A program made the position numbers and the translations under genes. From contig NZ_JAATJG010000011.1 of NCBI RefSeq assembly GCF_011927765.1, positions 62,001 to 126,000 of the forward strand: a stretch of 64,000 nucleotides of DNA. Reading direction: 5' to 3'. This document shows, in pieces, positions 4,071 to 51,121 of the stretch. The stretch's first letter is position 1. Each line of letters starts with the position of its first letter. Below the pieces are notes generated by a model. The model did not search any database and had not been told where the DNA came from. It saw nothing but the letters and a program-made list of their open reading frames with translations. Origin of the DNA: Wenyingzhuangia aestuarii. GTDB lineage: Bacteria; Bacteroidota; Bacteroidia; Flavobacteriales; Flavobacteriaceae.

Positions 4071-4134
4071 ATCATATCAACTACATTTAAAATCATATAG
4101 AACAATAAAAACAATTGTATCTATGTAGTTTTAG
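4071..4134 (+). promoter_or_regulatory. Putative activator-dependent promoter of the 807-aa propeller gene
   Basis: Two half-sites, ATCATATCA at 4071 and ATCATATAG at 4092, start exactly 21 bp apart. A box TAGTTTTAG at 4126-4134 follows 34 bp after the second half-site. The same geometry precedes nine other genes here. A terminator-like hairpin lies between this promoter and the start codon, unlike at the other copies. Confidence 0.55.
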
Positions 4135-4147
4135 AACTATCAAATTT

Positions 4148-4186
4148 AACTTCAGTTTGTTAATTTTTAGCAAACTGAAGTTTTTT
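4148..4186 (+). terminator. Stem-loop with T-run just before the 4198 start codon
   Basis: A 12-bp perfect stem (AACTTCAGTTTG / CAAACTGAAGTT), an 11-nt loop and a run of six T. It could end the upstream GH16 operon. It also falls inside the expected 5' leader of the next gene, 12 nt before its GTG, so it could act as an attenuator. Confidence 0.65.
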
Positions 4187-4197
4187 AAATTATAGTT

Positions 4198-6621
4198 GTG
4201 ATTAAATTCAAAACATTTTTAGCCGTTCTTTTTTGTACAGTATTTATTCCCGTAGTAAATGCACAAATTGTATTACTTGGAGACAATGCTCCTTATACCA
4301 ATGTAAACGATGGAGACTTTACCACCGTACGAGGGTATTGGAGACAAGCCAAACAATCTCCTTTTTGGACAACAAAAGTTTTAAAAGGAAAAGAAAAAAT
4401 GGGATTACATCTTGGTTCGTTGTTTAGTATGAATGAACTAGGAGTGGCTGAATCTAAAATTTTAAACACAAACCCAAAATATCAACAAGCTAAAAGAGGA
4501 GATATTATTGAATGGGAATTTGGAGCTGATTTAGAATATGTAAGCAAAGGAACTATTTCTTTAAGTCTTGTTTTTGGCGATACAGAAAGAATTTTAGCAG
4601 AAAAAGTAAAACTAATAGGATCAGACAAAACTATTGAACATTTTAAAGGAACGTATGTGGTATCCAAAGAAGATGCTAAAGCTGGTTTACCCTTTGTAAG
4701 AGCAACATTTTATTCAGAACAAGGTGTAAAGGTCTATTTACACTATGTAAATATTAGAATTACCAATAGTAAAGACAAAGTACTAGTATTAAAAGCTAAT
4801 TTAATAAAAAATGGAGTAGCGTTAAAGTGGAATACTTTTAAAAATACTACTTATAAAATTTATAGAAGTCCCATAAACAAAGTAGCTTATCAGCAAATTG
4901 GAGAAACTCAAAATAATTCTTTTGTAGATACCCGTTTAATTACAGGTTTGCCTTATAATTATGTGGTAACACATATTCAAAAAGGAGTAGAATCAATAGG
5001 TTCTAACGAAGTTAAAATAGCAAAAAAAGATACCATTGCTCCTGATGCTCCACTAGGTTTGAAATCAGAAATTTTTGATACTGAAATTAATTTGTTTTGG
5101 AATAAAAACACGGATAAAGACCTTGCTTATTATTCCCTTTTTAGAGGAGATGCTAATGGAAATCACATGAGAGAAATTGCTCATGACTTAAAAAAGAATC
5201 ATTATCTAGACTTTACTCCGCTAAAAGAAACAGACAATACTTATCAGGTTTACGCTTATGATTATAGTGGAAATAGAAGTAAAGCATCTAAAGTTATTAA
5301 GTGTCGTGTAAAAACTGTTTTAGGAACATCTTTTAGCGATTTAATATTACCAATGCCTATTCATAAATCTTTAAGTTCTAATCTATGGGGAGCCAAAGGA
5401 GTGTTGCCTAGAGATCCTGATAATGGTATAGAAGAGGTAGATTGGACATACTGGGGAGGAAGACCTGTGTACGATAAAGATGGAAAATATCATATGAATA
5501 TTACACGTTGGCCTGCCAATGCCATTAAAGGACATTGGGAGTGGCCAAATTCTACAGTAGCTCATGTAGTTGCAGATCAACCTACAGGACCCTATAAAGT
5601 TCAAAAAGAGTTGGTGTATTCTTTTGCGAATGGAAAAGGGCATAATCCAGACATTATTTTGTTGAATGATGGTACTTATATGATGTATTCTTTAATTAAT
5701 TGGGAAGCTAATTTATTTACTTCTAAATCTATGAGTGGTCCTTGGAAAAGATTAGGAGTTATGGAGGTTGATTTATCAACTTCTTTAGAAAATCCAAATT
5801 TAAATTATCGATATTATAGAAATTTATCAGGAGTTCAATTAAATGATGGACGATTTTTATTTGTAACCAAAGGAGGTGGAATGATGGTTAGTCAGGATAA
5901 AAATCCATTAGGACCTTATAAAGCTTTAACTGTGGGGGTACGAGGAAATAAAATTATTCCAGAAAAATACAGAAACTCTAATTATGAAGATCCTGTTTTG
6001 TGGAAAGATGAGGTTCAATATCATATGATGATTAATGCTTTTTTAGATTATAGAGCTATTTATTTAAGATCTCCAGATGGAATTCATTGGAAGTTTAATT
6101 CAGGTACAGCTTACACACCCGATAATACCTCTTATGTAGATGGTACCAGAACACATTGGTACAAATTAGAAAGACCGCATGTGTTACAAGACCAGTTTGG
6201 TAGAGCTACACATTTATCTTTAGCTGTTATAGATGTTCCTAAAGAAGATGATTTGGCAAAAGATAATCACAATTCTAAAAACATTGTAATCCCGTTAGTG
6301 GTTCCAAAAAGAATTACAATGTTAAATAAAACACAAGTTGATAGCACGACTAAAAATATTAAAATTCTAATCCGTTCAGAAAAAGGATTCAATGCTCAAA
6401 AAGACATCAATATAAAAACGTTACGATTTGGAGCAACGGAAGAAGTAGACTTTGGAAGAGGGTGTAAAGTAATCAAAACAAAGCAAAAAGGAAAAGATTT
6501 AATTGTTGAGTTTGATGGCTTAGGAAACGGAATTACAGAAAGTAATTTTGTAGGAAAACTATTAGGAAAAACAAACAAGGGAGAGTTGTTAATTGGGTAT
6601 TCAAAGTTAAAAGCTCAATAA
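4198..6621 (+). CDS. Secreted FN3 / five-bladed beta-propeller glycoside hydrolase-like protein (GH43/GH117-type fold)
   Basis: 807 residues with a GTG start; the signal peptide (IKFKTFLAVLFCTVFIPVVNAQ) begins directly there and no ATG is available. The region at about 25-190 is a beta-rich module with YTNVNDGDF, resembling a carbohydrate-binding module. Two FN3-like domains follow at about 195-275 and 280-370 (DAPLGLKSEIFDTEINLFWN). From about 380 to the end there is a five-bladed-propeller region with blade motifs such as GRPVYDKDGKYHMNI, GKGHNPDIILLNDGTYMMYS and YEDPVLWKDEVQYHMM, the pattern seen in GH43/GH117-like enzymes (PDI and YEDP provide candidate catalytic Asp/Glu). I cannot assign a family number. 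In this context an exo-acting enzyme on galactan oligosaccharides is plausible. It is probably a single-gene transcription unit. Confidence 0.65.
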   Translation: MIKFKTFLAVLFCTVFIPVVNAQIVLLGDNAPYTNVNDGDFTTVRGYWRQAKQSPFWTTKVLKGKEKMGLHLGSLFSMNELGVAESKILNTNPKYQQAKRGDIIEWEFGADLEYVSKGTISLSLVFGDTERILAEKVKLIGSDKTIEHFKGTYVVSKEDAKAGLPFVRATFYSEQGVKVYLHYVNIRITNSKDKVLVLKANLIKNGVALKWNTFKNTTYKIYRSPINKVAYQQIGETQNNSFVDTRLITGLPYNYVVTHIQKGVESIGSNEVKIAKKDTIAPDAPLGLKSEIFDTEINLFWNKNTDKDLAYYSLFRGDANGNHMREIAHDLKKNHYLDFTPLKETDNTYQVYAYDYSGNRSKASKVIKCRVKTVLGTSFSDLILPMPIHKSLSSNLWGAKGVLPRDPDNGIEEVDWTYWGGRPVYDKDGKYHMNITRWPANAIKGHWEWPNSTVAHVVADQPTGPYKVQKELVYSFANGKGHNPDIILLNDGTYMMYSLINWEANLFTSKSMSGPWKRLGVMEVDLSTSLENPNLNYRYYRNLSGVQLNDGRFLFVTKGGGMMVSQDKNPLGPYKALTVGVRGNKIIPEKYRNSNYEDPVLWKDEVQYHMMINAFLDYRAIYLRSPDGIHWKFNSGTAYTPDNTSYVDGTRTHWYKLERPHVLQDQFGRATHLSLAVIDVPKEDDLAKDNHNSKNIVIPLVVPKRITMLNKTQVDSTTKNIKILIRSEKGFNAQKDINIKTLRFGATEEVDFGRGCKVIKTKQKGKDLIVEFDGLGNGITESNFVGKLLGKTNKGELLIGYSKLKAQ

Positions 6622-6646
6622 ATTGGAGATTCGTAGAAATAAATAA

Positions 6647-6710
6647 ACCATTAGTAGTATATTTAAAAACATACGTGTGACTTATAATTCTTCTTTTTAA
6701 AGTATTTTTG
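6647..6710 (+). promoter_or_regulatory. Putative activator-dependent promoter of the GH28-sulfatase unit
   Basis: Half-sites ACCATTAGT (6647, weaker) and AACATACGT (6668) start 21 bp apart. TATTTTTG at 6703-6710 follows 35 bp after the second. It lies 58 bp before the GH28 start codon and has the same layout as the other nine sites. Confidence 0.5.
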
Positions 6711-6767
6711 TGTGCGTACACGTGTTGTGTTTTGGTTTTTTAATATCAATAAATAAAAAAGAATAAA

Positions 6768-8186: not shown

Positions 8187-8195
8187 AAAAGCATT

Positions 8196-9755
8196 ATGAA
8201 AATCAAGAGCTATTTTAATGTAATACTCTATGTTTTTTTGGGATTATATACAAGTCAATTTGTATTTGCCCAAAAAACAAAACCCAATATTCTGTTTGCT
8301 ATTTGTGACGATGTATCATATCTGCACACAGGTTATGGAGGAAGTCCCTTTGTAAACACTCCAACTTTTGATAAAATAGCGCAAGAAGGAATCTGTTTTT
8401 CTAATTTTTATGTGGCATCTCCAGGTTGTGCACCTTCTAGAGGTTCTATTGTTACGGGTAGATATCCTTGGCAAAACGAACAATCTGGACAACACGTTTC
8501 TTCTTGGATGAAAAAATACGTGCCGTTGGCTGATGAATTACAAGCTAATGGATATAAAGTAGGAATGACCGGAAAAGGAGTGTCTCCTTTTCGTTATGCA
8601 AAAAACAAATCAGAAGAAACTCTTTGGCGAAAAGAAAATGCTGCAGGTCCTGAATACAATAAAATTCATTACAGTAAAGAACATGATGAACGAACTACAA
8701 CTAAAATAAGTTCTAAAAATTACTTTGAGAATTTTAAAACTTTTATGAAGGGCAAAAAAGAACATCAACCTTTCTTTTTTTGGTATGGAGCACACGAAGC
8801 ACATAGAGGATATGAAAAGGATTCTTGGAAAAGAACTAATAAACAGTTAAAAGATGTAACCGTACCCGCTTTTTTACCAGACAATGGAGTAGTAAGAGGA
8901 GATTTATTAGATTATGCTGTAGAAATTGAATGGTTTGATGCTCAGTTACAAAGAATGCTAACCTATTTAAAAAGTAAAGGAGAATTAGAAAATACCATTG
9001 TGATTGTAACAGCAGACAACGGAATGCCTTTTCCTAGAGCCAAAGCGAATTGTTACGATTATGGAGTACATGTACCTTTCGTAGTAAGTTATCCTAAAGA
9101 ATTTCAGAAAAATAAAACCATAAAAACTCCTTTAGGAGCTGTAGACTTAGCTCCTACTATTTTAGAAATGACCCAAACAACACCTACTAAAATGTAATCT
9201 ATTACGGGAAGTAGTTTTTTAAAGGTCTTAAAAGGAGAAAAGGAATTAAACATAAATAATGCTGTGTTTTCTGGAAGAGAAAGACATACTTCTGCTAGGT
9301 ATAATAACCTTGGGTATCCGCAACGTAGTATCCGTAAAAATGAGTATTTATTGATTTGGAACATTAGTCCAGAAAGATGGCCTTCGGGTGCTCCTGTTAG
9401 CTACAAATCTAAAGAAGATAAAAAACTTATTAAAAATGTATTTGCAGATATTGATGGTTCTCCCACAAAAAGTAATATCCTTAAAAACAAAGAGGCTGAT
9501 GAGGTGAGTTACTATTTTAATATTTCTTGTGACAAACGTCCAGAGTTTGAATTGTACAATCTAGAAAAAGATAGCTCTTGCTTAACCAATTTATCAGGAA
9601 CAAAAGAATATCAGCATGTAGAAATAGCTTTAAAACAAGAATTAATGCAAGAACTCATCAAAACAAAAGATCCTAGAGTTGTGGGGCCAAATAAAGAAGT
9701 TTTTGATAGCTACAAACGTTATTCTTCTATGAGGTATTTTCCAAAGGTCAATTAA
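8196..9755 (+). pseudogene. Type I sulfatase interrupted by an in-frame TAA at 9195-9197
   Basis: A single reading frame encodes a sulfatase of about 519 codons, with signal peptide (FVFAQ), metal motif ICDD, formylglycine site C-A-P-S-R (Cys78) and VTADNGMPF. It is broken by TAA at 9195-9197, between TTPTKM and SITGSSFLKVLKG, a conserved part of the family. The frame is unchanged after the stop and stays open to 9755 through the normal C-terminal subdomain (FELYNLEKDSSCLTNLSG). A CAA (Gln) to TAA change would explain it. The truncated 333-residue product keeps the active-site Cys but lacks the C-terminal subdomain, so it is probably inactive. A sequencing error is possible. It follows the GH28 gene by 9 bp. 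Confidence 0.85.
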
Positions 9756-9768
9756 GCAACCTAAAAAA

Positions 9769-9830
9769 ATCATATGTGTTGCATTGTAAATCATACAGCT
9801 ATTTAATTTTTTACAAGTACGTTATTTTTG
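9769..9830 (+). promoter_or_regulatory. Putative activator-dependent promoter of the 9848 sulfatase
   Basis: Half-sites ATCATATGT (9769) and ATCATACAG (9790) start 21 bp apart. TATTTTTG (9823-9830), a good Bacteroidota -7 box, lies 33 bp after the second half-site and 18 bp before the start codon. Confidence 0.6.
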
Positions 9831-9847
9831 ATGAAAAATAATGAACG

Positions 9848-11320: not shown

Positions 11321-11340
11321 CTAAGGCTTATAAAAAGCAT

Positions 11341-11383
11341 AAAATGCCTGTTTTTATTGTTAAAAACAGGCATTTTGTTTTAC
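11341..11383 (+). terminator. Rho-independent terminator after the 9848 sulfatase
   Basis: A 15-bp perfect stem (AAAATGCCTGTTTTT / AAAAACAGGCATTTT) with a 6-nt loop and T-rich tail, 20 bp after the sulfatase stop. Confidence 0.8.
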
Positions 11384-11416
11384 ATTTAAAAACGCAACAA
11401 CTTTTATTTTTTTTAA

Positions 11417-13231: not shown

Positions 13232-13266
13232 AAATACAGGTAATGCCTACATAAAAGATTAAAAAA

Positions 13267-13329
13267 CACATATCTTATAGAAACAAAATCATATGTCTAT
13301 TCATCATTGTAGTTAATGTAGCATTTTTG
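13267..13329 (+). promoter_or_regulatory. Putative activator-dependent promoter of the GH2 gene at 13366
   Basis: Half-sites CACATATCT (13267) and ATCATATGT (13288) start 21 bp apart. CATTTTTG (13322-13329) lies 34 bp after the second. The motif TGTAGTTA between half-site and box is shared with the 16003 promoter. Confidence 0.6.
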
Positions 13330-13365
13330 CAATAGTTAGTTGTTATTAATTTATTTACATACAAG

Positions 13366-15831: not shown

Positions 15832-15860
15832 TTATAACAGAACTATACTTAGTCTGAACA

Positions 15861-15897: not shown

Positions 15898-15915
15898 ATG
15901 GAGTTTATTTTAAAA

Positions 15916-15978
15916 CACATATGTATTACAAATAATATCATACGTACAATAACTCCATGTAGTTATTTCATTTTTTTG
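15916..15978 (+). promoter_or_regulatory. Putative activator-dependent promoter of the sulfatase/propeller/GH29 operon
   Basis: Half-sites CACATATGT (15916) and ATCATACGT (15937) start 21 bp apart. The box TTTTTTTG (15971-15978) lies 34 bp after the second half-site. The site sits right after the upstream terminator. Confidence 0.6.
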
Positions 15979-16002
15979 TTAGTGTAAAGTAATTACTAGA
16001 AA

Positions 16003-17535: not shown

Positions 17536-17545
17536 TACAAAATGT

Positions 17546-26082: not shown

Positions 26083-26145
26083 AACATATATATCTTCATT
26101 TTACACATATGGTTCTTTGCTGAACTTTAAATCTCATCAACTTTG
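26083..26145 (+). promoter_or_regulatory. Putative activator-dependent promoter of the susCD operon
   Basis: Half-sites AACATATAT (26083) and CACATATGG (26104) start 21 bp apart. CAACTTTG (26138-26145) lies 34 bp after the second. It is 31 bp before the SusC start codon. Confidence 0.6.
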
Positions 26146-33367: not shown

Positions 33368-33430
33368 ATCATTTGTGTTTGTCATAAAATCATGAGTGTC
33401 TAAAAATATCATAGTGATGTTGTTACTTTG
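33368..33430 (+). promoter_or_regulatory. Putative activator-dependent promoter of the FN3 lipoprotein/propeller unit
   Basis: Half-sites ATCATTTGT (33368) and ATCATGAGT (33389) start 21 bp apart. TTACTTTG (33423-33430) lies 34 bp after the second. An extra ATCATAGTG at 33408 falls outside the pattern. Confidence 0.55.
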
Positions 33431-37497: not shown

Positions 37498-37560
37498 ATC
37501 ATATCTGCTAGTTTAAAAAACATACCAATCTTAAAGAATCTTTCTTTTTAATGTTCTTTG
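37498..37560 (+). promoter_or_regulatory. Putative activator-dependent promoter of the GH2 lipoprotein gene
   Basis: Half-sites ATCATATCT (37498) and AACATACCA (37519) start 21 bp apart. GTTCTTTG (37553-37560) lies 34 bp after the second. Confidence 0.55.
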
Positions 37561-40052: not shown

Positions 40053-40196
40053 AAAGTACTTTTTACCGTTAGGTGATTGTGTATAGATTGTAATTTTTTT
40101 AAATAGAGGTGTTAGTATATAATACTAATAAATTTTTAAGTACGTAATAAACAACGTAATATAGACTAGATTAAGGGCTTGTTTTTTAAAAGCTTA

Positions 40197-40259
40197 ATCA
40201 TATGTTTTAGATATTAAATCCTCTGTATCTAAAGAAAGACGTATAAATACTCACTTTTG
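40197..40259 (+). promoter_or_regulatory. Putative activator-dependent promoter of the GH29 lipoprotein gene
   Basis: Half-sites ATCATATGT (40197) and ATCCTCTGT (40218; 7 of 9 match) start 21 bp apart. CACTTTTG (40252-40259) lies 34 bp after the second. The rest of the 249-bp gap before it shows nothing recognisable. Confidence 0.55.
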
Positions 40260-40301
40260 TAACAGAAAGTTGGAGGAGTCCATTTTGATTATTAAATAAT
40301 T

Positions 40302-41843: not shown

Positions 41844-41865
41844 TATGTTAATTTTTTGGTTTGGT

Positions 41866-41899
41866 AAAAAGGTTTTGTCGCAAGACAAAACCTTTTTTT
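41866..41899. terminator. Bidirectional terminator between GH29 and lacI
   Basis: The stem AAAAGGTTTTGTC / GACAAAACCTTTT has A- and T-runs on both sides and lies between convergent genes, overlapping the end of lacI. Confidence 0.8.
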
Positions 41900-42920
41900 A
41901 TTCCTTTTTTTTAGAGGATGCTCTTACAATAAGTTCGGCATCTAAAATAATTTTGTTTAGTTGAGGTTTCCAAGTTTTGTCTTTTTCTCTTTTTAAAAAT
42001 TGTTTAGCTACCAGCTTTCCTATTTGTTCATTATGTTGGTAAATAGTAGAAATAGCAGGAGTTACTAAAGATGTAAAAGGTTCGTTACTAAAACCAACCA
42101 AGGCAATTTCTTCGGGAACTTTTATGTTGTTTTCTAATAGAACTTGTAAGGCACCAAGTGCAGCATAATCACCAGCAGCATAAACACCATCGGGTCTTTG
42201 AGGAAGTTTTAAAAGTTCTTCCATTTTTTGTCTACCTCCCTCTACGGTAAGATCACCTTCTAGTATTAATTCTTTTTCCAAAGGCAAATTGTGTTTTTCA
42301 AGTGCATCAATATACCCTTTAATACGGTTGTTATATATTCGGGTGTGTCTGTATCCAGCAATATGTGCAATTCTTTTACAGCCTTGCTCTACCATGTGGT
42401 CTACTACAATATGACTGCTTTTATAATCGTCAATTCCAATGTAGTCAACACCAATGTCATTATCACCTCTGTCATATAGAATTAAAGGAATTTCTTTGGC
42501 TTTAATTTTTTCGTAATGACTAAAATCTACAGTTTCGTTGGTTAAAGATGCTATAATACCATCTACTTGAGTTTGTAATAACGTTTCAATATTTCTACAC
42601 TCTTTATCATACGATTCGTTAGATTGTGTAAAGATTACATTGTACCCTTTTTTGTTTAATTCTTCTTCCATGTTTTCTACCACAGAAGAAAAGAAATGAC
42701 TATTGGTTCTAGGTACAATAACTCCAACTAATTTGCTCTTTCCACTTCGTAGAGCAGAGGCTAATTGGTTGGGTTGATATTCAAGTTCTTTAGCTACTTT
42801 TTTTACAGCTGCTTTGGTCTTGTCACTTATTCTAGGATGGTTGTGCAAAGCTCTAGATACGGCTGAAGGTGTAATTTTCAAAACATTAGCAATATCTTTT
42901 ATGGTGGTTTTCTTTTTCAT
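41898..42920 (-). CDS. LacI-family transcriptional regulator
   Basis: About 340 residues from the ATG at 42920 (MKKKTTIKDIANVLKI); an in-frame ATG further upstream would add 13 residues in front of the helix-turn-helix and overlap the operator. The N-terminal HTH and hinge helix read TTIKDIANVLKITPSAVSRALHNHPRISDKTKAAV and LASALRSGKSKLVGVIVPR. A periplasmic-binding-protein-like effector domain fills residues 60-340. It faces away from the catabolic operon starting at 43108. A palindromic operator lies before that operon and a near-identical one 20 bp before its own start, so autoregulation and control of the L-galactonate operon are likely. The effector is probably an intermediate of that pathway. 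Confidence 0.9.
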   Translation of the reverse strand: MKKKTTIKDIANVLKITPSAVSRALHNHPRISDKTKAAVKKVAKELEYQPNQLASALRSGKSKLVGVIVPRTNSHFFSSVVENMEEELNKKGYNVIFTQSNESYDKECRNIETLLQTQVDGIIASLTNETVDFSHYEKIKAKEIPLILYDRGDNDIGVDYIGIDDYKSSHIVVDHMVEQGCKRIAHIAGYRHTRIYNNRIKGYIDALEKHNLPLEKELILEGDLTVEGGRQKMEELLKLPQRPDGVYAAGDYAALGALQVLLENNIKVPEEIALVGFSNEPFTSLVTPAISTIYQHNEQIGKLVAKQFLKREKDKTWKPQLNKIILDAELIVRASSKKKE

Positions 42921-42939
42921 ATTCAAAATATTACTATAT

Positions 42940-42959
42940 TTGTTCAATCGTTTGAGCAA
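42940..42959. promoter_or_regulatory. LacI-type operator in front of lacI
   Basis: TTGTTCAATCGTTTGAGCAA matches 18 of 20 bases of the perfect palindrome at 43065. It is centred on the CG typical of LacI-family sites and lies 20 bp upstream of the lacI start codon. Confidence 0.75.
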
Positions 42960-43064
42960 ATGTAAATATTCTAATTGTTTTATTCAATATATCGGGTATT
43001 TAATGTGTTAAAATTGTAAAATTAATAATTGATGTTTTTTCGATTGTTAATTTTTTTAGCCCGT

Positions 43065-43084
43065 TTGTTCAAACGTTTGAACAA
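43065..43084. promoter_or_regulatory. LacI-type operator of the L-galactonate operon
   Basis: TTGTTCAAACGTTTGAACAA is a perfect 20-bp palindrome with a central CG, 23 bp before the start codon of the dehydrogenase gene. Confidence 0.85.
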
Positions 43085-43107
43085 CGAATTTAAATCTAAA
43101 AAATAAG

Positions 43108-44118
43108 ATGAAATATATAGTTTGTGAAGAGCCAGGAAAGTTTTTATTAAAGGAAAAAGAAGCTCCTGTTCGTAAAGAAAATGAAGCCTTATTAAGAGTG
43201 AAAAAAGTAGGAATCTGTGGAACAGATTTACATGCTTATTCTGGAAATCAAGCATTTTTTACATATCCAAGAATTTTAGGACACGAATTAGCTTCTGAAA
43301 TTGTTGAAATTGGAGATAATGAAAGAGGATTAAAAGCTGGAGACAAGGTAGTGGTTATGCCCTACGTAAGTTGTGGTAAATGTATTGCTTGTCGTAACGG
43401 AAAAACAAACTGTTGTACAAACATTAGTGTATTAGGTGTACATTCTGATGGAGGTATGCAAGAGTATATTACAGTTCGTCAAGATTTATTATTACCTGCT
43501 AATGATTTGTCTGATGATCAAATGGCAATTGTAGAACCTTTAGCAATTGGAGCACATGCAATTCGTAGAGCCAATGTTCAAAAAGGAGAAACGGTTGTAG
43601 TTGTAGGTTGTGGACCTATTGGAATTGGAATGGTTAAGTTGGCTCAAATAGCTGGGGCAACAGTAATTGTTTTAGATGTAAACGACGATCGTTTAAAATA
43701 TACAAAAGAAGAAATAGGAGCAGATTACGTTATTAACGTAAATAATAATCCTGCTGAAAAAATTGCAGAAATAACTAATGGTGATATGGCAACTGCTGTT
43801 TTTGACGCTACCGGATTTAAAGGAGCATTAGAAGTAGGACCAGATTACATGTCTCACGGAGGACGTTATGTATTAGTTGGATTATCTAAAGGAGATTTAA
43901 CTTTTGCACATCCAAAAATCCATGCCAAAGAAACTACTATTATGTGTAGTAGAAACGCAACTACCGAAGATTTTGAGCACGTAATTAGTGTGTTAGATCA
44001 GTTTCCAACAAGTTCATTTATTACGCACAATGTGCCATTTACAGAAATGATAGAAAATTTTGATAGTTGGACAAAACCAGCTACGGGAGTAATTAAGGCA
44101 ACTGTAGATTTTAGCTAA
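43108..44118 (+). CDS. lgoD: Zinc-dependent alcohol dehydrogenase, L-galactonate-5-dehydrogenase-like
   Basis: 336 residues of the medium-chain zinc alcohol dehydrogenase family. Catalytic zinc ligands appear as Cys in VGICGTDLHAYSG and His-Glu in ILGHELASEIV. The structural zinc loop is SCGKCIACRNGKTNCC, and the NAD(P) Rossmann motif is VVVGCGPIGIGMVKLA. From memory, the segments GICGTDLHA, YPRILGHE, TNCCTNISVLGVHSDGG and the late SRNATTEDF closely follow E. coli LgoD (YjjN), which oxidises L-galactonate to D-tagaturonate. The next genes reduce tagaturonate and process altronate and KDG, which fits this reaction exactly. It is first in a LacI-controlled operon. Related dehydrogenases (sorbitol, threonine) are alternative but less consistent with the context. 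Confidence 0.82.
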   Translation: MKYIVCEEPGKFLLKEKEAPVRKENEALLRVKKVGICGTDLHAYSGNQAFFTYPRILGHELASEIVEIGDNERGLKAGDKVVVMPYVSCGKCIACRNGKTNCCTNISVLGVHSDGGMQEYITVRQDLLLPANDLSDDQMAIVEPLAIGAHAIRRANVQKGETVVVVGCGPIGIGMVKLAQIAGATVIVLDVNDDRLKYTKEEIGADYVINVNNNPAEKIAEITNGDMATAVFDATGFKGALEVGPDYMSHGGRYVLVGLSKGDLTFAHPKIHAKETTIMCSRNATTEDFEHVISVLDQFPTSSFITHNVPFTEMIENFDSWTKPATGVIKATVDFS

Positions 44119-44157
44119 AAAAAAATAACCAAAACCAAACCAAAAATAATAATAATC

Positions 44158-45192
44158 ATGTTTTCAAAAAAACATAAAGTGATCACCTTTGGTGAGATTC
44201 TGGGAAGATTATCTCCTCCCAATCACCTAAGGTTTAGTCAAGCCAGCTCTTTAGAGGTTATCTATGGAGGTGGAGAGTTTAATGTAGCGGCTTCTTTAGC
44301 TAACTACGGAATTAGAGCTCAGTTTATTTCAGCTGTTCCAGACAATGCTATTGGAGATTGTGTACTTCAAAGTATTAGGAGTAGAAACGTAGGAGCTAAA
44401 TATATTTTAAGACAAGGAAATAGATTAGGCTTGTATTTTCTAGAACACGGAGCTTCTGGTAGAAACAGTGCTGTTGTGTACGATAGAGCAAATTCTGCAA
44501 TGTCTGAAGTAAAACCTGGTCAATTTGATTGGGATACTATTTTTAAAGGAGCTACTTGGTTCCATTGGAGTGGTATAACACCAGCTTTGTCACAATCTGC
44601 AGCAGATACTTGTTTAGAAGCTGTTAAAGCTGCTGCTGAAAGGGGGTTAACTATTTCTACAGACTTAAATTACCGAAGCAAGTTGTGGAAATACGGAAAA
44701 CAACCTAAAGAAATTATGCCTGAGTTGTTAAAGTATAGCAATGTTATTTTAGCAGATGTAGATACCGCTATGTTTATGCTAGGAAAAGCTAAAATCAATC
44801 CTGATTATAGCAAAGACGATGAGGTTAAAATGTTGTTTGATAAAATTATAGAGTTGTTACCAAACGTGCATACTATTGGTATGACCTTTAGAAACTCTGT
44901 AAATGCCTCTCATCAAAGGATAGGAGGTTTATTATATAAAGACAATCAATTATATAGAGCAAGAATTAACGAAATATCACCTGTGGTAGATAGAGTAGGA
45001 ACAGGAGATGCATTTATGGGGGGGTTGCTTTATGGTTTAATAGAATATAAAGACGATTTACAAAAAGCAGTAGCTTTTGCTACATCTGCATGTGTAATTA
45101 AGCACACTATTTTTGGAGATGTAAATAGAGCTTCTAAGCAAGAAGTTGTTGACTTTATGGAAAGTGACGGATCTGCATTGGTAGATAGGTAA
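44158..45192 (+). CDS. kdgK: PfkB-family sugar kinase, 2-keto-3-deoxygluconate kinase
   Basis: 344 residues. PfkB features: ITFGEILGRLSPPNHLRFSQ, YGGGEFNVAASLANYG, and the catalytic anion-hole motif DRVGTGDAFMGGLLYGL, with Asp of GTGDAF as base. It is expected to phosphorylate KDG to KDPG with ATP. It precedes the KDPG-type aldolase gene and shares an operon with altronate dehydratase, so KDG from altronate is the natural substrate. It is 39 bp after the dehydrogenase gene. A 2-keto-3-deoxygalactonate kinase from an anhydrogalactose route would look similar, but no gene of that route is present here. Confidence 0.85.
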   Translation: MFSKKHKVITFGEILGRLSPPNHLRFSQASSLEVIYGGGEFNVAASLANYGIRAQFISAVPDNAIGDCVLQSIRSRNVGAKYILRQGNRLGLYFLEHGASGRNSAVVYDRANSAMSEVKPGQFDWDTIFKGATWFHWSGITPALSQSAADTCLEAVKAAAERGLTISTDLNYRSKLWKYGKQPKEIMPELLKYSNVILADVDTAMFMLGKAKINPDYSKDDEVKMLFDKIIELLPNVHTIGMTFRNSVNASHQRIGGLLYKDNQLYRARINEISPVVDRVGTGDAFMGGLLYGLIEYKDDLQKAVAFATSACVIKHTIFGDVNRASKQEVVDFMESDGSALVDR

Positions 45193-45276
45193 TGGTTAGC
45201 TGTTTAAGCAAAAAAAACAGTTAATCACAAACACAATTAAACAAACAAATAATTAAACGATTAAAATTTTAAAAAG

Positions 45277-45945
45277 ATGGCACAATTTTCAAGAATAGAA
45301 GTAGCACAAGTGATGAAAGAAACAGGAATGGTTCCTTTATTTTATCACCCAGATATAGAATTAGGTAAAAAAGTATTAAAAGCTTGTTACGATGGTGGAG
45401 CACGTTTGTTAGAATTTACAGCTAGAGGAGATTTTGCTCACGAAGTTTTTGCTGCATTAACAAAATATGCTATTGCCGAATTACCTGGAATGATTATGGG
45501 AGTTGGATCTATTACAGATGCAGCTGCAGCTTCATTATACATGTCTTTAGGAGCAAACTTTATTGTAACTCCTGTGTTTAGAGAAGATATTGCCATTGCT
45601 TGTAACAGACGTAAAGTAGCTTGGAATCCAGGTTGTGGAACGCTAACAGAAATAGCTAGAGCAGAGGAATTAGGATGCGAAATTGTAAAACTATTCCCTG
45701 GAAACTTATACGGACCTAACTTTGTAAAAGGAATTGTAGGGCCTCAACCTTGGACATCTATTATGCCTACAGGTGGAGTTACTACAGAAGAAGACAATTT
45801 AAAAGGTTGGTTTGATGCAGGAGTTGTTTGTGTGGGAATGGGGTCTCAGTTAATTAGCAAACAAATATTAGCAGATAAAGATTATGCAGGTTTAGAAAAA
45901 ACAGTTGCAAAAGCTTTAGAAACAATTAAAAAAGTAAGAGGTTAA
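45277..45945 (+). CDS. eda: Bifunctional 4-hydroxy-2-oxoglutarate / 2-dehydro-3-deoxyphosphogluconate (KDPG) aldolase
   Basis: 222 residues of the class I KDPG aldolase family. The catalytic Glu lies in RLLEFTARG and the Schiff-base Lys in EIVKLFPG; further phosphate-binding motifs are MGVGSI and TGGVTTEE. It cleaves KDPG to pyruvate and glyceraldehyde-3-phosphate, the last step of the oxidative route. The 84-bp gap from the kinase has a weak dyad (TTAGCTGTTT / AAACAGTTAA) without a T-run; the operon probably continues through it. The altronate dehydratase gene starts 10 bp later. Confidence 0.9.
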   Translation: MAQFSRIEVAQVMKETGMVPLFYHPDIELGKKVLKACYDGGARLLEFTARGDFAHEVFAALTKYAIAELPGMIMGVGSITDAAAASLYMSLGANFIVTPVFREDIAIACNRRKVAWNPGCGTLTEIARAEELGCEIVKLFPGNLYGPNFVKGIVGPQPWTSIMPTGGVTTEEDNLKGWFDAGVVCVGMGSQLISKQILADKDYAGLEKTVAKALETIKKVRG

Positions 45946-45955
45946 AAATAAAAAT

Positions 45956-47608
45956 ATGTCAGTTCAGTACGCACAAATAGATCCAAAAGACAATATTATT
46001 GTGGCTATTCAGCCTTTAGCAAAAGATACTTTTGTAGAAGTAGCGGGTCAGAGTTTACTATTAAAAGAAAATATCAAACAAAAGCATAAGTTTGCTTTGA
46101 ATGATTTTGCAGTAGGTGATGAGATCTTTATGTATGGTGTGCTTATTGGAAAAGCCGTTTTGCCAATTTCAGCAGGATGTGCTATTACTATAGAAAACGT
46201 AAAACACGCATCTTCAGAGTATAAAGAAAACAAAGAAAAATATTCTTGGACAGCTCCTGATACTTCTAATTTTAAAGATAGAACCTTTAATGGTTATCAT
46301 CGTAAGGATGGGAAAGTAGGAACTGCTAACTACTGGCTAGTTATTCCATTAACTTTTTGTGAAAATAGAAATATTGATGTTTTAGAAGGTGCTCTTTCAG
46401 AAAAATTAGGATACGAAACTAAAAAAGATTTTGCCGTAGATACCGATGCTTTAATCAATCAATACAAAGCCGGAGCTACAGCAGATGAACTTTTTAACAC
46501 ACCCATTATTACGACCAAAGAAGAAATGTCTAAAAACAGAGTATTCTCTAATGTTGATGGGATTAAATTCTTAAAACATGATGGTGGTTGTGGAGGTATT
46601 CGTCAAGATTCTGAAACCTTGTGTAGATTACTAGCTGGATATATTTCAAACCCAAATGTAGCTGGAGCCACTATTTTTAGTTTAGGTTGTCAAAATGCCC
46701 AAATAGAAATGTTGCAAAATGCAATTAAGGACATTGCTCCTAATTGCGATAAACCAGTACATTACTTAGAACAACAACAAAGTGAAAGTGAACGTAAGTT
46801 AATAGAAGAAGCTGTAAAGCATACTTTTATTGGTTTAACAGAAGCTAACAAAATTACGAGACAACCAGCTCCATTAAGCAAATTAACGCTAGGACTAGAG
46901 TGCGGAGGGTCAGATGGATTCTCTGGAATTTCTGCCAACCCTGCTTTAGGATATGCTTCTGATTTATTAGTTGCACTAGGTGGTTGTCCGGTTTTGTCTG
47001 AATTTCCAGAGTTAAATGGTGTAGAACAAGACATTATTAATAGATGTGTAACAGAACACGATGCAAAAAAGTTCTACAATATTATGAGAGCTTATTCTGC
47101 AGCAGCAGTAGCTGTAGGTTCTGGTTTTGAAAACAACCCTTCTCCAGGAAATATTAAAGATGGTTTAATTACCGATGCTATGAAATCTGCCGGAGCAGCC
47201 AAAAAAGGAGGAACTTCTCCTGTGGTAGAGGTGTTAGATTATACAGAGCAAGTAACCAAACCAGGATTAAATTTACTGTGTACACCAGGTAACGATGTTG
47301 AATCTACAACAGGTTTAGTAGGTTCAGGATGTAACGTAGTGGTGTTTACTACAGGTTTAGGAACTCCAACAGGAAATCCTGTAGCTCCTGTATTAAAAAT
47401 GTCTAGCAATACCAATTTGTACGAACGTATGAATGATATCATCGACATTAATGCTGGAACTGTTATTACAGGTGAGGATACCATCCAAACTATGGGAGAA
47501 AAAATATTAGATCATGTCATTAGAGTGGCTAGTGGAGAAACTCCATCCAAAGCAGTATTGCATGGACATAACGATTTTATTCCTTGGAAAAGAGGAGTGT
47601 CTTTATAA
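45956..47608 (+). CDS. uxaA: Altronate dehydratase (UxaA family)
   Basis: 550 residues with both UxaA parts: an N-terminal SAF domain (about 5-95, IDPKDNIIVAIQPLAKDTFVEV to AGCAITIENV) and the large C-terminal dehydratase domain starting with RTFNGYHRKDGKVGTANYWLVIP. The latter includes HDGGCGGIRQDSETLCRLLAGY, SLGCQNAQIEMLQ and LGLECGGSDGFSGISANPALGYASD. It is an iron-dependent lyase removing water from D-altronate to form KDG. The order lgoD-kdgK-eda-uxaA-uxaB makes it part of the L-galactonate or galacturonate branch. A terminator at 47634 follows the gene, so uxaB downstream may be transcribed separately. Confidence 0.92.
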   Translation: MSVQYAQIDPKDNIIVAIQPLAKDTFVEVAGQSLLLKENIKQKHKFALNDFAVGDEIFMYGVLIGKAVLPISAGCAITIENVKHASSEYKENKEKYSWTAPDTSNFKDRTFNGYHRKDGKVGTANYWLVIPLTFCENRNIDVLEGALSEKLGYETKKDFAVDTDALINQYKAGATADELFNTPIITTKEEMSKNRVFSNVDGIKFLKHDGGCGGIRQDSETLCRLLAGYISNPNVAGATIFSLGCQNAQIEMLQNAIKDIAPNCDKPVHYLEQQQSESERKLIEEAVKHTFIGLTEANKITRQPAPLSKLTLGLECGGSDGFSGISANPALGYASDLLVALGGCPVLSEFPELNGVEQDIINRCVTEHDAKKFYNIMRAYSAAAVAVGSGFENNPSPGNIKDGLITDAMKSAGAAKKGGTSPVVEVLDYTEQVTKPGLNLLCTPGNDVESTTGLVGSGCNVVVFTTGLGTPTGNPVAPVLKMSSNTNLYERMNDIIDINAGTVITGEDTIQTMGEKILDHVIRVASGETPSKAVLHGHNDFIPWKRGVSL

Positions 47609-47633
47609 CTAGTATTTAATATAAAAAACATAT

Positions 47634-47672
47634 ATGTTCTGCTAAAGTAGATTTTAGCAGAACATTATAGCA
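47634..47672 (+). terminator. Rho-independent terminator after uxaA
   Basis: A 13-bp stem (ATGTTCTGCTAAA / TTTAGCAGAACAT) with a 6-nt loop. The tail is AT-rich rather than a pure T-run. Confidence 0.65.
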
Positions 47673-47764
47673 ATAAAAAAATTTGCTTCAATAAAGAAAG
47701 TTTGTAATTGAAACTAACTAATTGTTGATTCGAGAAATTTTAAAGAATAAATAATATCAATAAA

Positions 47765-49216
47765 ATGGATTCATTAAATAGAACAACAGCTAATAAGCCT
47801 GTGCAATATCCTGTGCGTGTCATGCAATTTGGAGGAGGTAATTTTTTAAGAGCCTTTTGCGATTGTATGTTTGATGTATTGAACAAAACAACTGATTTTA
47901 ACGGAAGTGTTGCTGTAGTAAAACCTACCAAGAGAGGTGATTATACAGAGTTAAGAACACAAGAAGGTTTATTTCATGTAGCTTTAGACGGAGTTAGAAA
48001 TGGAACATTAGTTTCAGAAGTTGCTTTGGTAGAATCTGTAAGTAAAGTTATTCAGCCTTATACAGAGTGGAACGAATATTTGGCTTTGGCAGAAGCACCA
48101 GAAATGCGTTTTATAGTATCTAACACAACAGAAGCTGGAATTAAATTTTCTAATACAGACAAACAAACTGATTGTCCTCCACATGAATTTCCAGCAAAAT
48201 TAACGTTGTGGTTACACCATAGATTTACTCATTTTAATGGAGCTGCAGACAAAGGTTGTATATTATTGCCTTGTGAATTGATTGAGAATAATGGTGTAGA
48301 ATTACAAAGAACCATTTTAGAATATATAAAGTTTTGGAACCTAGGTCAAGATTTTGCAGCATGGATTGTAGATCATAATTATTTCTGTAGCACTTTGGTA
48401 GATAGAATTGTTTCTGGATTTCCAGAAGCTAGAAAACTAGAGATTGCTACACAAATTGGTTTTAATGATGATTTATTAGTCGCTGGAGAAGATTATCATA
48501 GTTGGGTAATTAAAGGATCTAAATTGGTGCAAAATGAATTGCCATTTGCCAAAACAGATTTAAACGTTCAGTTTGTAGACGATTTGTCTGATTATAGAGA
48601 AATGAAAGTTCGTGTATTAAACGGAGCACATACTTCTTTAGTTCCTGTAGGATATTTATCAGGATTAAGAACTGTAAAAGAAAGTATGGATGATGTATTG
48701 GTAAGCAACCATGTTTTACAAGTATTGTCATCAGAAATAAAACCAACGTTAACCAATTTTTCAGAAAGTGAAGTAGATGCGTTTATTAATGCGGTAATAG
48801 ATCGTTTTAAAAACCCAACATTAAAGCACTTTTTATTAGCTATATCTTTAAATAGCACCTCTAAATTTCAAGCAAGATTGTTACCTGCTTTTAGAGAATA
48901 TACTGCCTTAAACGGAACTTTTCCTAAACGTATAGCTTTCTCATTAGCTTGTATGATTCGTTTTTACAAAGGAAGTTTTAACAACGAAACTATTGATGTA
49001 AATGACGATGCACAAGCATTAGAATTCTTTAAAACGGAATGGAATAAGGTAGATGATGGAAGTCAGACTTTAGAAGCATTGGTACAGCATACTTTGGCAA
49101 ATAAAACAATTGTAGGTGATGATTTGTCTATCTACAATGGATTGGTTGCTTTTGTAACAGAAAAAATTCAAGAAATAGAAAATAAAGGAGTGAAATATTG
49201 CCTTGAAAATTTATAA
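47765..49216 (+). CDS. uxaB: Tagaturonate reductase / mannitol dehydrogenase family (UxaB)
   Basis: 483 residues of the long-chain mannitol dehydrogenase family. It has an NAD-binding N-terminus (VRVMQFGGGNFLRAFCDCMFD), the VLNGAHTSLVPVGYLSG catalytic segment with the conserved Lys before it (MKVR), and the C-terminal helical domain. UxaB reduces D-tagaturonate to D-altronate with NADH. Together with the upstream L-galactonate dehydrogenase this pair inverts stereochemistry at carbon 5, and altronate then goes to UxaA. Fructuronate reductase (UxuB) is a related alternative, but uxaA next door favours tagaturonate. It overlaps the usable range of the lactonase gene only slightly (start 10 bp after the stop). 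Confidence 0.88.
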   Translation: MDSLNRTTANKPVQYPVRVMQFGGGNFLRAFCDCMFDVLNKTTDFNGSVAVVKPTKRGDYTELRTQEGLFHVALDGVRNGTLVSEVALVESVSKVIQPYTEWNEYLALAEAPEMRFIVSNTTEAGIKFSNTDKQTDCPPHEFPAKLTLWLHHRFTHFNGAADKGCILLPCELIENNGVELQRTILEYIKFWNLGQDFAAWIVDHNYFCSTLVDRIVSGFPEARKLEIATQIGFNDDLLVAGEDYHSWVIKGSKLVQNELPFAKTDLNVQFVDDLSDYREMKVRVLNGAHTSLVPVGYLSGLRTVKESMDDVLVSNHVLQVLSSEIKPTLTNFSESEVDAFINAVIDRFKNPTLKHFLLAISLNSTSKFQARLLPAFREYTALNGTFPKRIAFSLACMIRFYKGSFNNETIDVNDDAQALEFFKTEWNKVDDGSQTLEALVQHTLANKTIVGDDLSIYNGLVAFVTEKIQEIENKGVKYCLENL

Positions 49217-49226
49217 AAACGGAGTT

Positions 49227-50054
49227 ATGAATATAGATTCACATCAACATTTTTGGAAATACGAACCCGTAAAACATAGTTGGATAGACGATGAAATGGC
49301 GGTTATTCGTAAAGATTTTATGCCGTCAGATTTAAAAGAAGTTTATCAAGAAAACAACATAGACGGATGTGTAGCCGTACAAGCAGATCAAACATTAGCA
49401 GAAACAGATTTCTTATTAGACTTAGCTACTAAAAACGATTTTATCAAAGGAATTGTTGGTTGGGTAGATTTTAGAGCAGATAATATTGATGAAGTACTAA
49501 AACATTACAGTCAGTTTGATAAAGTAAAAGGGTTTCGTCATGTAGTTCAAGGAGAAGCAGATCATAATTTTTTGTTAAGACCTGATTTTTTAAACGGAAT
49601 TGCTAAGCTAGAACAATACAATTTTACCTACGATATTTTGGTGTTTCCACATCAATTAGGATCGGTGTTAGAATTTGTAAAAAAGTTCCCAAACATCAAA
49701 TTTGTGATAGATCATATAGCAAAACCTTACATTAAATATGGGTTTTATGAGGGGTGGGCATTGCTAATGAAAGAAATTGCAACTTACCCAAATGTTTACT
49801 GTAAGCTATCAGGAATGATTACAGAAGCAGATTACAAAACATGGACCTACGAGCAATTAATACCATATATGGAATTGATTTTGTCTGCTTTTGGAGCCGA
49901 CAGAATTTTATATGGTTCTGATTGGCCAGTATGTTTGGTAGCAGGAAACTATAAGAAAGTAAGAAAAATAACAACCGATTTTATAGCAAATTTACCTATC
50001 GCTGATCGAAAGGCAATTATGGGCTTAAATGCAGTAAAATTTTACAATTTATAA
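49227..50054 (+). CDS. Amidohydrolase-family sugar lactonase (L-fucono/L-galactono-1,5-lactonase type)
   Basis: About 275 residues from ATG 49227 (MNIDSHQHFWKYEP); an in-frame ATG at 49203 would overlap uxaB. COG3618-type amidohydrolase: metal motif DSHQHFW, SGMITEADYKTW, and a final Asp in LYGSDWPVCL. Members hydrolyse L-fucono-, L-rhamnono- or L-galactono-lactones. Here it sits between UxaB and an L-fucose/L-galactose dehydrogenase-type AKR (11-bp gap). The AKR would make L-galactono-1,5-lactone and this enzyme L-galactonate, substrate of LgoD. It could also open L-fuconolactone, but no L-fuconate dehydratase is present in the window. Confidence 0.82.
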   Translation: MNIDSHQHFWKYEPVKHSWIDDEMAVIRKDFMPSDLKEVYQENNIDGCVAVQADQTLAETDFLLDLATKNDFIKGIVGWVDFRADNIDEVLKHYSQFDKVKGFRHVVQGEADHNFLLRPDFLNGIAKLEQYNFTYDILVFPHQLGSVLEFVKKFPNIKFVIDHIAKPYIKYGFYEGWALLMKEIATYPNVYCKLSGMITEADYKTWTYEQLIPYMELILSAFGADRILYGSDWPVCLVAGNYKKVRKITTDFIANLPIADRKAIMGLNAVKFYNL

Positions 50055-50065
50055 AACATAAAAAA

Positions 50066-51019
50066 ATGAAGACAAATCCAACTTACATAAAAGGAGATTA
50101 TACAAAAAGTGAATTTTTTAACAACCAAAGTAGACTTGTTTGTGGTTGTTCTGGACTTGGTGGAGTTTGGAGGCCTATAGAAGAAAAAGATGCTGTAGAA
50201 ACATTAACTTATGCGTTAGAAAACGGAGTTCGTGTATTTGATACTGCACCTTCTTACAATAGATCTCAAGAGTTTTTAGGTAAAACATTAAAAGCATGGA
50301 CAGGAGAAAAGCCATTTATTAGTACAAAAGTTGGTCGTTTACAGGCTGATAGAGCTGATGATTGTATTGTAGATTATTCTACAGAAACCATGAGAAAAAG
50401 TGTATACCAAAGTTTAGAGGTAATTGGTATAGATAAAATAGATTTATTGTTTTTACATGAGCCACACTTAGTGCCTGTAGAAAGAATGGACGAAATTATG
50501 GATTGTTTAAATAATCTTAAAAAAGAAGGAGTTGTTGGAAGGTTAGGAATAGGAGGTAATCCAACCGAACCATTTTATCCACATATGATTAAAGAGAATT
50601 TTGATGTGCTTTCTGGATTCTTAAAAATGGATGCTTGTAATTTATCTGGTTTTGAAAGAGATATTCCTCAAATTCAAAAAGAAAATATAGCGTACTATGC
50701 AGCATCTGCATTACACATGGGGTTATTAGGAAGACGATTAGATCAATACAACGAAGAAAGACCTAATAACGAATGGGTAACCAATTTAGATGTAGATACG
50801 GCTCTTGAAATTAATAAGATTGCTATTAAGCACAATATTCCATTATCAAGATTGGCATTAAGATATGTGTTCTCTATTAAAGAAGCAGATAGAGTTGTGG
50901 TAGGACCAAGTAAAAAAGAGCAAATGGTAGATTTGTTAAATGCTTGGAACGAAGGAAAACTAGAAGAATCAATTTTTGATGAAATTACAGCTGTAATAAA
51001 AAATGGAGCTGCTAAATAA
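50066..51019 (+). CDS. Aldo/keto reductase, L-fucose/L-galactose 1-dehydrogenase type
   Basis: 317 residues of the AKR superfamily with a TIM barrel. Catalytic tetrad signatures: Asp-Tyr in RVFDTAPSYNRSQEFLG, Lys in FISTKVGRL, and His in LLFLHEP. The nucleotide-binding end reads RVVVGPSKKEQ. Pairing with a COG3618 lactonase is typical for D-threo-aldose 1-dehydrogenases, which oxidise L-fucose, D-arabinose and L-galactose to 1,5-lactones with NAD(P)+. In this cluster the enzymes for L-galactonate are complete while those for L-fuconate are absent, so L-galactose is the more consistent substrate. A repeat-type promoter begins 40 bp downstream for the next gene. Confidence 0.82.
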   Translation: MKTNPTYIKGDYTKSEFFNNQSRLVCGCSGLGGVWRPIEEKDAVETLTYALENGVRVFDTAPSYNRSQEFLGKTLKAWTGEKPFISTKVGRLQADRADDCIVDYSTETMRKSVYQSLEVIGIDKIDLLFLHEPHLVPVERMDEIMDCLNNLKKEGVVGRLGIGGNPTEPFYPHMIKENFDVLSGFLKMDACNLSGFERDIPQIQKENIAYYAASALHMGLLGRRLDQYNEERPNNEWVTNLDVDTALEINKIAIKHNIPLSRLALRYVFSIKEADRVVVGPSKKEQMVDLLNAWNEGKLEESIFDEITAVIKNGAAK

Positions 51020-51058
51020 GAGTAGTAACAGTAAAAGTTAAGAAATAAAGCTTTTAAA

Positions 51059-51121
51059 GACATTTGTAATACTTTCAAAGACATATGAATTCAGAAGATA
51101 GTAGATATTGTCATTAATTCG
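51059..51121 (+). promoter_or_regulatory. Putative activator-dependent promoter of fucP-mutarotase
   Basis: Half-sites GACATTTGT (51059) and GACATATGA (51080) start 21 bp apart. The -7-like box TTAATTCG (51114-51121) at the expected 34-bp distance is weak. This is the only copy of this promoter type outside the hydrolase region. Confidence 0.45.

Follow-up and report, generated by a model that had tools for sequence, protein, structure and literature searches.

Ten gene groups for sulfated seaweed polysaccharide breakdown share one predicted paired operator at a fixed promoter distance

The window, a stretch of 64,000 nucleotides from Wenyingzhuangia aestuarii, holds genes for sulfatases, GH2, GH28 and GH29 hydrolases, SusC and SusD proteins and fucP, in ten groups that are each preceded by two short half-sites and a promoter-like box. 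All ten pairs lie on the plus strand ahead of a plus-strand gene; they are present at the starts given by the first-pass annotation, and the two half-sites of each pair start exactly 21 bp apart. They are listed here with the matrix scores of sites at orthologous promoters in Wenyingzhuangia heitensis (G299) and Wenyingzhuangia sp. 2_MG-2023 (G300), which both have the hybrid two-component system (HTCS) discussed below, and in a further genome, G180. The other features of the window follow.

4071 to 4100, plus strand: predicted operator 1, half-sites at 4071 and 4092, box 4126-4133 (TAGTTTTA), upstream of gene 4198 (807 aa, without Pfam match); G300 30.0 bits, ortholog of gene 4198 not seen among the G299 stretches examined.
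6647 to 6676, plus strand: predicted operator 2, box 6703-6710, upstream of GH28 gene 6768; G300 29.9 bits, no site at the G299 ortholog (best 6.8 bits).
9769 to 9798, plus strand: predicted operator 3, box 9823-9830, upstream of sulfatase gene 9848; G299 14.8 bits, G300 31.0 bits.
13267 to 13296, plus strand: predicted operator 4, box 13322-13329, upstream of GH2 gene 13366; G299 28.0 bits, G300 29.8 bits, G180 24.1 bits.
15916 to 15945, plus strand: predicted operator 5, box 15971-15978, upstream of genes for sulfatase 16003, Sortilin-type protein 17546, sulfatase 20857, GH29 22425 and sulfatase 24056; G299 24.0 bits, none of at least 14 bits in G300.
26083 to 26112, plus strand: predicted operator 6, the weakest by leave-one-out (5.4 bits), box 26138-26145, upstream of SusC 26177, SusD 29347 and gene 31312; orthologous SusC sites G299 19.5 bits, G300 20.3 bits.
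33368 to 33397, plus strand: predicted operator 7, box 33423-33430, upstream of fn3 protein 33453 and Sortilin-type protein 34184; G299 29.6 bits, none of at least 14 bits in G300.
37498 to 37527, plus strand: predicted operator 8, box 37553-37560, upstream of GH2 gene 37587; G299 30.3 bits, G300 26.2 bits, G180 26.8 bits.
40197 to 40226, plus strand: predicted operator 9, box 40252-40259, upstream of GH29 gene 40302; G299 26.2 bits, none of at least 14 bits in G300.
51059 to 51088, plus strand: predicted operator 10, box 51114-51121 (TTAATTCG), upstream of fucP 51145 and mutarotase 52490; G300 27.5 bits, nothing of at least 8 bits in the fucP-holding stretch of G299.
41898 to 42959, minus strand: LacI-type regulator, read as a separate control layer.
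43068 to 43081, no strand: perfect palindrome TTCAAACGTTTGAA between the LacI and ADH genes, probably the LacI operator.
43108 to 51019, plus strand: sugar-acid genes (zinc ADH, KDG-type kinase, KDPG aldolase, altronate/galactarate dehydratase family, tagaturonate reductase, lactonase, aldo-keto reductase), with no operator of at least 4 bits in the gap ahead of 43108.
54298 to 55161, minus strand: AraC-type regulator, rejected as reader of the ten sites.
58385 to 59311, minus strand: AraC-type regulator, likewise rejected.

The half-sites are nearly invariant in their CAT core (C in 20, A in 19 and T in 20 of the 20 half-sites). The CATATG core is itself near-palindromic, its direction being given by an A-rich flank, and each of the ten sites is a direct repeat of two conserved sites rather than a palindrome, as in HTCS-type operators. 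The distance of about 21 bp between repeats, both in the window and in the comparison loci, is also that of HTCS-type operators, and the sites stand ahead of SusC/D and hydrolase operons in a polysaccharide locus with its own HTCS gene.

The distance to the promoter box is as constant as first described: measured from the first base of the second half-site, the box begins at 34 bp in eight of the ten cases, at 35 bp for 6647 and at 33 bp for 9769. Exact TTTG is present in eight (six times at offset 38, once each at 37 and 39), the exceptions being 4071 with TTTA and 51059 with TTCG. Among 58 held-out sites outside the window, which include L003:733 and L015:5504 (both lacking TTTG at offset 38), TTTG stands at exactly this offset in 27, against a background of 1.2%. 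For sites elsewhere in the same genome this holds in only one of eight, and -7 boxes were mostly not found there. Flavobacterial sigma-A promoters are described, in the passages of PMC9723704 that concern them, as carrying TAnnTTTG at -12 to -5; the window boxes fit this element in letters and, by gene distance, in place, but most of the ten retain its TTTG half and not its TA half. Further upstream, the ten promoters show no conspicuous -33-type element.

The window has a G+C content of 32.7%, the motif was spotted by eye, and the site at 26083 is weak by leave-one-out (5.4 bits, the other nine scoring 18.2 to 25.3), all of which would suit a chance pattern of AT-rich intergenic DNA. We regard this explanation as extremely improbable, and the original judgement that the spacing is hard to explain by chance was borne out by spacing, permutation, held-out recovery and simulation controls. 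Pairs of CAT[AT] on the plus strand with both halves intergenic occur 8 times at spacing 21 and at most 3 times at any other of 52 spacings (8 to 60). A matrix built from 28 sites of other genera places the ten listed sites as the ten best in the 64-kb window (16.6 to 34.4 bits, the next at 15.3); it is not fully independent, because its training sites had been found with a window-made model. Simulated sequence gave an average of 0.05 places of at least 14 bits in 40 Markov-1 windows and never more than 1, with one simulated place, at 18.9 bits, scoring above the weakest listed site (4071, 16.6 bits). Permuted matrices yielded a mean of 0.38 and a maximum of 2 places in 50 permutations, against 41 real sites of at least 18 bits, across 35 loci of which 25 had been picked by model hits. 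In 21 loci picked by HTCS protein similarity alone (at least 48%), there are 11 places of at least 18 bits at spacing 21 and 0-3 at each of 13 other spacings; 8 loci of homologs at 33-35% have none. Several of the apparent spacings of 19 and 23 in the protein-chosen loci (e.g., L034) are slipped readings of 21-bp sites, because flat columns were used for varying the spacing.

The best candidate regulator is encoded 22.7 kb upstream of the window, on the minus strand of the same contig (G000:C11:35072-39283, equivalent to L001:13072-17283). This HTCS of 1403 aa combines in one chain a propeller and Y_Y_Y sensor, HisKA, HATPase, a receiver and an AraC-type HTH; a single membrane-spanning segment lies near 807-837 and the His box at 869, and the best solved matches of its sensor part are 4a2l and 3v9f. 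The whole-genome matrix scan suggested at the outset put nine of the ten best own-genome matches on contig C11, with a model made from the ten sites; only one of the nine lies outside the training set, and it is flanked by the HTCS gene and a GH28 gene. Sites of 22.2 and 14.1 bits also accompany two sulfatase genes located between the HTCS and the window.

The sites are conserved at orthologous promoters together with the HTCS. Sites of at least 14 bits accompany orthologs of seven of the ten window promoters in G299 and of seven in G300; no site was detected at three promoters in each (one G299 case being the gene not seen), and each of the ten has an orthologous site in one or both genomes. 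In G180, sites are conserved at two GH2 promoters. Across genomes, matches at E<=0.005 occur in 11 of 21 with the HTCS clade and in 14 of 277 without it (Fisher p 2.9e-8), and the four genomes besides W. aestuarii with more than one match all belong to the clade. Within clade genomes, 12 of 68 matches (E<=0.05) fall within 5 kb of the HTCS gene midpoint, where 0.3 are expected. Under the stricter filters ten of the 21 clade genomes have no match at E<=0.005, one of the clade genomes, G236, lacks a match even at E<=0.05, and the 14 non-clade genomes, with one match each, exceed the nominal 1.4, the E-values being rough. A plasmid search with the SusC protein returned only matches below 60% identity. 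The initial reading of one regulon with AraC/HTCS-type geometry is supported by spacing, orientation, box register and conservation at orthologous promoters. We consider it very likely, from these sequence comparisons, that the ten sequences are operators of this one HTCS.

Cytoplasmic AraC-type proteins deserve consideration as readers of the repeats, as E. coli AraC monomers also bind about 21 bp apart and three such proteins with AraC-type HTH domains lie on the same contig as the sites (54298-55161, 58385-59311 and, adjoining the HTCS, L001:12099-12995). None of them tracks the sites, which makes this very improbable. The protein at 54298 has a 94% ortholog in G300, but its best match in G180, a genome with conserved sites, is 42%; that at 58385 has no G180 match at E<=1e-30 and a match only in G002 among 35 other genomes (searches with these two left out G299 and G300); the third reaches 35% in G180 and 31-35% at best in G300, despite seven orthologous sites there. 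Neither of the two window proteins has an ortholog in G180, where the operator is conserved. The first-pass annotation had named the AraC protein at 54298 and any nearby HTCS as candidates: the former is not supported, its best G180 match being 42%, and the latter is supported but is encoded outside the window.

A paralogous HTCS, or several HTCS proteins together, could also use the operators, and pairs of paralogous HTCS with shared sites have been proposed in Bacteroides, in the part of PMC3878776 that treats them. One such candidate, on contig C8, is 48% identical overall and 72% in its DNA-binding domain; its 16-kb locus lacks such a site (best 10.8 bits) and the highest score ahead of its SusC gene, on that strand, is -0.3 bits, so that we judge this very unlikely. 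The LacI-type regulator at 41898-42959 is conserved with the locus (80% in G299, 97% in G300, 79% in G180), yet LacI proteins bind palindromes and the ten sites are direct repeats. Its own gene adjoins the perfect palindrome at 43068-43081, and an 80% ortholog occurs in G228, a genome without a match at E<=0.05. That it controls the set is hardly credible.

The HTCS would, by this assignment, work as follows. An oligosaccharide from the sulfated polysaccharide would be bound by the periplasmic propeller and Y_Y_Y sensor, and the kinase (His869) would pass phosphate to the receiver. Two AraC-type DNA-binding domains could then occupy the two CATATGT-like half-sites, on the same DNA face and two helical turns apart, with the promoter-proximal one beginning some 46 bp ahead of the expected transcription start. 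The bound HTCS would be placed beside sigma-A RNA polymerase at the TAnnTTTG-like box, and sulfatases, GH2, GH28 and GH29 hydrolases, SusC/D and fucP would be switched on together. Binding by the HTCS, activation rather than repression, the inducer and the start sites are what we infer here.

Whether the HTCS controls its own gene was also considered. Of the own-genome sites that did not train the model, the strongest points to the HTCS gene, but its counterpart in G180 and G300 sits by GH28, away from the HTCS, and may therefore belong to GH28 in reverse orientation; autoregulation was not kept. In four genomes (W. aestuarii, G180, G299, G300) this site faces away from GH28, and in its own reading direction it lacks TTTG at the usual distance. 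A second site, present in G300 alone, scores 17.5 bits with TTTG at offset 38 and is directed at the HTCS gene of that genome, 120 bp away.

The regulon probably serves an L-galactose or L-fucose polymer. More broadly, the marine flavobacterial HTCS clade might share one operator code, of A-rich CATATGT-like half-sites 21 bp apart with the second 34 bp before a TAnnTTTG-like box, across many genera and mainly for L-galactose-containing red-algal galactans, a generalisation from sequence that we put forward tentatively and that could readily go either way. If true, such regulons would be readable from sequence even when their genes are scattered. Should the assignment to the HTCS hold, sequence would suffice to list the regulon of a sulfated-galactan degrader, weak SusC promoters and genes elsewhere in the genome included, and the protein that senses the substrate would be named and open to testing. 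The promoters of this phylum differ from the E. coli type, and the distance from the promoter-proximal half-site to the -7 box, constant in different genera, suggests that the activator contacts RNA polymerase rigidly.

Among known systems, the carrageenan regulon of Zobellia galactanivorans, as presented in the relevant passages of PMC5698469, was defined by RNA-seq, is co-induced by a red-algal galactan and includes distant genes, and its main PUL is regulated by CgrA, a member of the AraC family. Together with a second PUL (ZGAL_3629-3638), it is similar to the present set in gene content (GH2, GH29, GH28, S1 sulfatases, SusC/D); those passages give no operator sequence for it. The receiver-DNA-binding domains of BT4124 and BT4663, tested by EMSA, bind in a phosphorylation-dependent manner at susCD-homolog promoters (PMC11253607). 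These proteins share their architecture with the HTCS described here, from another clade and organism, and the passages on them contain no spacing or promoter register. In the open-licence literature, as far as the search extended, we found no account of the operator sequence of a marine flavobacterial HTCS. A close likeness is with Bacteroides thetaiotaomicron, for which Ravcheev et al. (2013; PMC3878776) describe, in the part that concerns HTCS motifs, direct repeats at an average distance of 21 bp; these two-site repeats also precede SusC/D and hydrolase operons, and the regulons may take in operons away from the HTCS gene. Since 21-bp direct repeats are the published form, the kind of operator is already known. 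What is new here is the predicted operator of a marine HTCS clade, its promoter register and a regulon probably for an L-galactose or L-fucose polymer: compared with the Bacteroides operators by their described geometry, those reported here belong to a Flavobacteriaceae clade, have a CATATGT-like half-site and keep a constant 34-bp register to the -7 box across genera.

Inspection of the window sequence confirmed all ten pairs of half-sites described by the first-pass annotation. The half-site starts are 21 bp apart in every pair (10/10), and the promoter box, a TAnnTTTG-like -7 element, starts 34 bp after the start of the second half-site in eight cases, 33 bp in one and 35 bp in one, with the exact letters TTTG in 8/10 boxes. 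The core of the half-site is CAT (C in 20/20, A in 19/20, T in 20/20) and follows an A-rich flank. All ten sites precede a gene on the + strand:

4071, + strand, before a gene of unknown family
6647, + strand, before GH28
9769, + strand, before a sulfatase
13267, + strand, before GH2
15916, + strand, before a sulfatase-GH29 operon
26083, + strand, before SusC/SusD
33368, + strand, before an fn3/Sortilin pair
37498, + strand, before GH2
40197, + strand, before GH29
51059, + strand, before fucP

The claim that chance hardly explains this arrangement held against simulated sequence, in which places scoring at least 14 bits with the other-genera matrix described below averaged 0.05 per window (40 simulations; one place reached 18.9 bits). 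If only the crude core CAT[AT] is required, on the + strand and intergenic in both halves, there are 8 pairs at spacing 21 and a maximum of 3 at any of 52 other spacings. Leave-one-out scores were 18.2-25.3 bits for nine sites and 5.4 for 26083. A second matrix, derived from 28 sites in other genera, ranks the ten above every other place in the window (lowest, 4071 with 16.6 bits; 26083, 20.8 bits; next place, 15.3 bits), a test that is not fully independent because these 28 sites were found using a window-derived model. The control on loci picked solely by similarity to the hybrid two-component sensor (HTCS) discussed below is cleaner: 11 places reach at least 18 bits at spacing 21, and 0-3 do so at each of 13 other spacings.

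Sites elsewhere were found with R1, a model of 43 positions built from the window sites, box not included. Of the 58 sites outside the window that score at least 18 bits, 27 have TTTG exactly at offset 38 (box start 34), the background in intergenic DNA being 1.2% per position. By group, this holds for 1/8 sites in the rest of the genome, 3/6 in the family genome G180, 14/27 in other genera, 6/8 in Wenyingzhuangia heitensis and 3/9 in Wenyingzhuangia sp. 2_MG-2023, where two further sites have TTTG at offset 37. PMC9723704 places TAnnTTTG at -12 to -5; on this basis the half-sites would begin near -67 and -46.

No HTCS is encoded in the 64-kb window, and one is found on its contig, 22.7 kb upstream (L001:13072-17283 of a fetched stretch of the same genome, minus strand). 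This favoured reader of the sites has fourteen hundred residues, with propeller repeats, Y_Y_Y, HisKA, HATPase, receiver and AraC-type HTH domains. The nine best R1 matches in the genome are all on its contig. Further sulfatase, GH2 and GH43 genes are located between the HTCS and the window, and two of these sulfatase genes bear their own sites (22.2 and 14.1 bits). On contig C2 a site (25.0 bits) precedes a sulfatase-GH2-GH29 operon, and sites also precede a few other genes of the genome whose connection is less certain. Four genomes also have an operator-like site that lies upstream of GH28 and is oriented away from that gene:

L001:17479-17508, own genome
L046:13961-13990
L067:9718-9747
L068:3277-3306

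The site points toward the HTCS in our genome and in W. heitensis; it faces away from GH28 in 4/4 genomes examined, two of them without an HTCS adjoining it. Outside the locus, sites at L012:5939, L013:6043 and L050:6218 precede genes of secreted or lipoprotein-like proteins, among them a T9SS-sorted protein and, in our genome and G180, beta-helix proteins; these genes are possible distant members of the regulon.

The HTCS is 79% identical in W. heitensis, 67% in Wenyingzhuangia sp. 2_MG-2023 and 65% in Ochrovirga pacifica S85. Seven of the orthologous promoters have sites in each of the two Wenyingzhuangia relatives, and 10/10 have one in at least one of them. In W. heitensis no site was detected at the orthologs of 6647 and 51059, and the retrieved stretches did not show the gene of 4071; in Wenyingzhuangia sp. 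2_MG-2023 the orthologs of 15916, 33368 and 40197 yielded none. Across 298 further genomes of the family, a match at E<=0.005 occurs in 11/21 with an HTCS of at least 48% identity vs 14/277 without (Fisher p 2.9e-8), and in the 21 HTCS genomes 12/68 matches (E<=0.05) fall within 5 kb of an HTCS midpoint (0.3 expected), both counts including related genomes that are not independent draws.

Other regulators fare less well as readers. The AraC-type protein encoded at 54298, one of the candidates named by the first-pass annotation, is not supported, its best match in G180 being only 42% identical. We rejected the AraC-type gene at 58385, found in G002 only among 35 other genomes, and the AraC gene beside the HTCS, with an ortholog in W. 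heitensis only, of 13 genomes searched. For a paralogous HTCS on contig C8, no such site occurs near its gene. The LacI-type regulator (41898-42959) was also rejected: its ortholog occurs in a genome without sites, and a palindrome that is probably its own operator lies in two copies around the gene start:

43068-43081, perfect palindrome TTCAAACGTTTGAA
42943-42956, second copy with two mismatches

This pair probably gives the sugar-acid operon another layer of control. The counterpart of that operon's ADH gene in G286 and in G084 also has the direct-repeat operator directed at it.

The genes at 43108-51019 would be consistent with a pathway that starts from L-galactose or L-fucose, and presumably resemble the one that Bacteroides vulgatus has for L-galactose. 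Three proteins score above the NCBIfam cut-offs (tagaturonate reductase, KDPG aldolase and FucP); five match below them (lactonase, dehydratase, kinase, dehydrogenase and aldo-keto reductase). Together with GH2, GH29, GH16, GH28 and many sulfatases, the sugar-acid genes suggest as substrate an L-galactose-containing red-algal galactan of porphyran or agar type, a fucose-containing polymer being a possible alternative. Downstream of the sulfatase at 8196-9197 (333 aa) comes an ORF of 163 aa (9264-9755) resembling its C-terminal part, and the sulfatase's match in Wenyingzhuangia sp. 2_MG-2023 is a single gene of 518 aa; 8196-9755 may be one gene that has split or is decaying, or the break may be an error in the sequence. 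The GH16 ORF at 2984-4000 (338 aa) seems shortened at its start (412 aa in the same relative). Beside the HTCS are a zinc ADH, an esterase and the AraC gene (L001:10147-12995). A similar trio in G002 (L052:9211-14990) adjoins three small genes that may form a ferredoxin system. According to PMC10033563, ADHs are linked to porphyran demethylation by a cytochrome P450.

PMC3878776 describes every predicted HTCS motif as a direct repeat whose two sites are on average 21 bp apart, and infers dimers separated by two turns of the helix, so the 21-bp direct-repeat geometry is already known. What is new is this predicted operator, its HTCS clade, the promoter register and the regulon.
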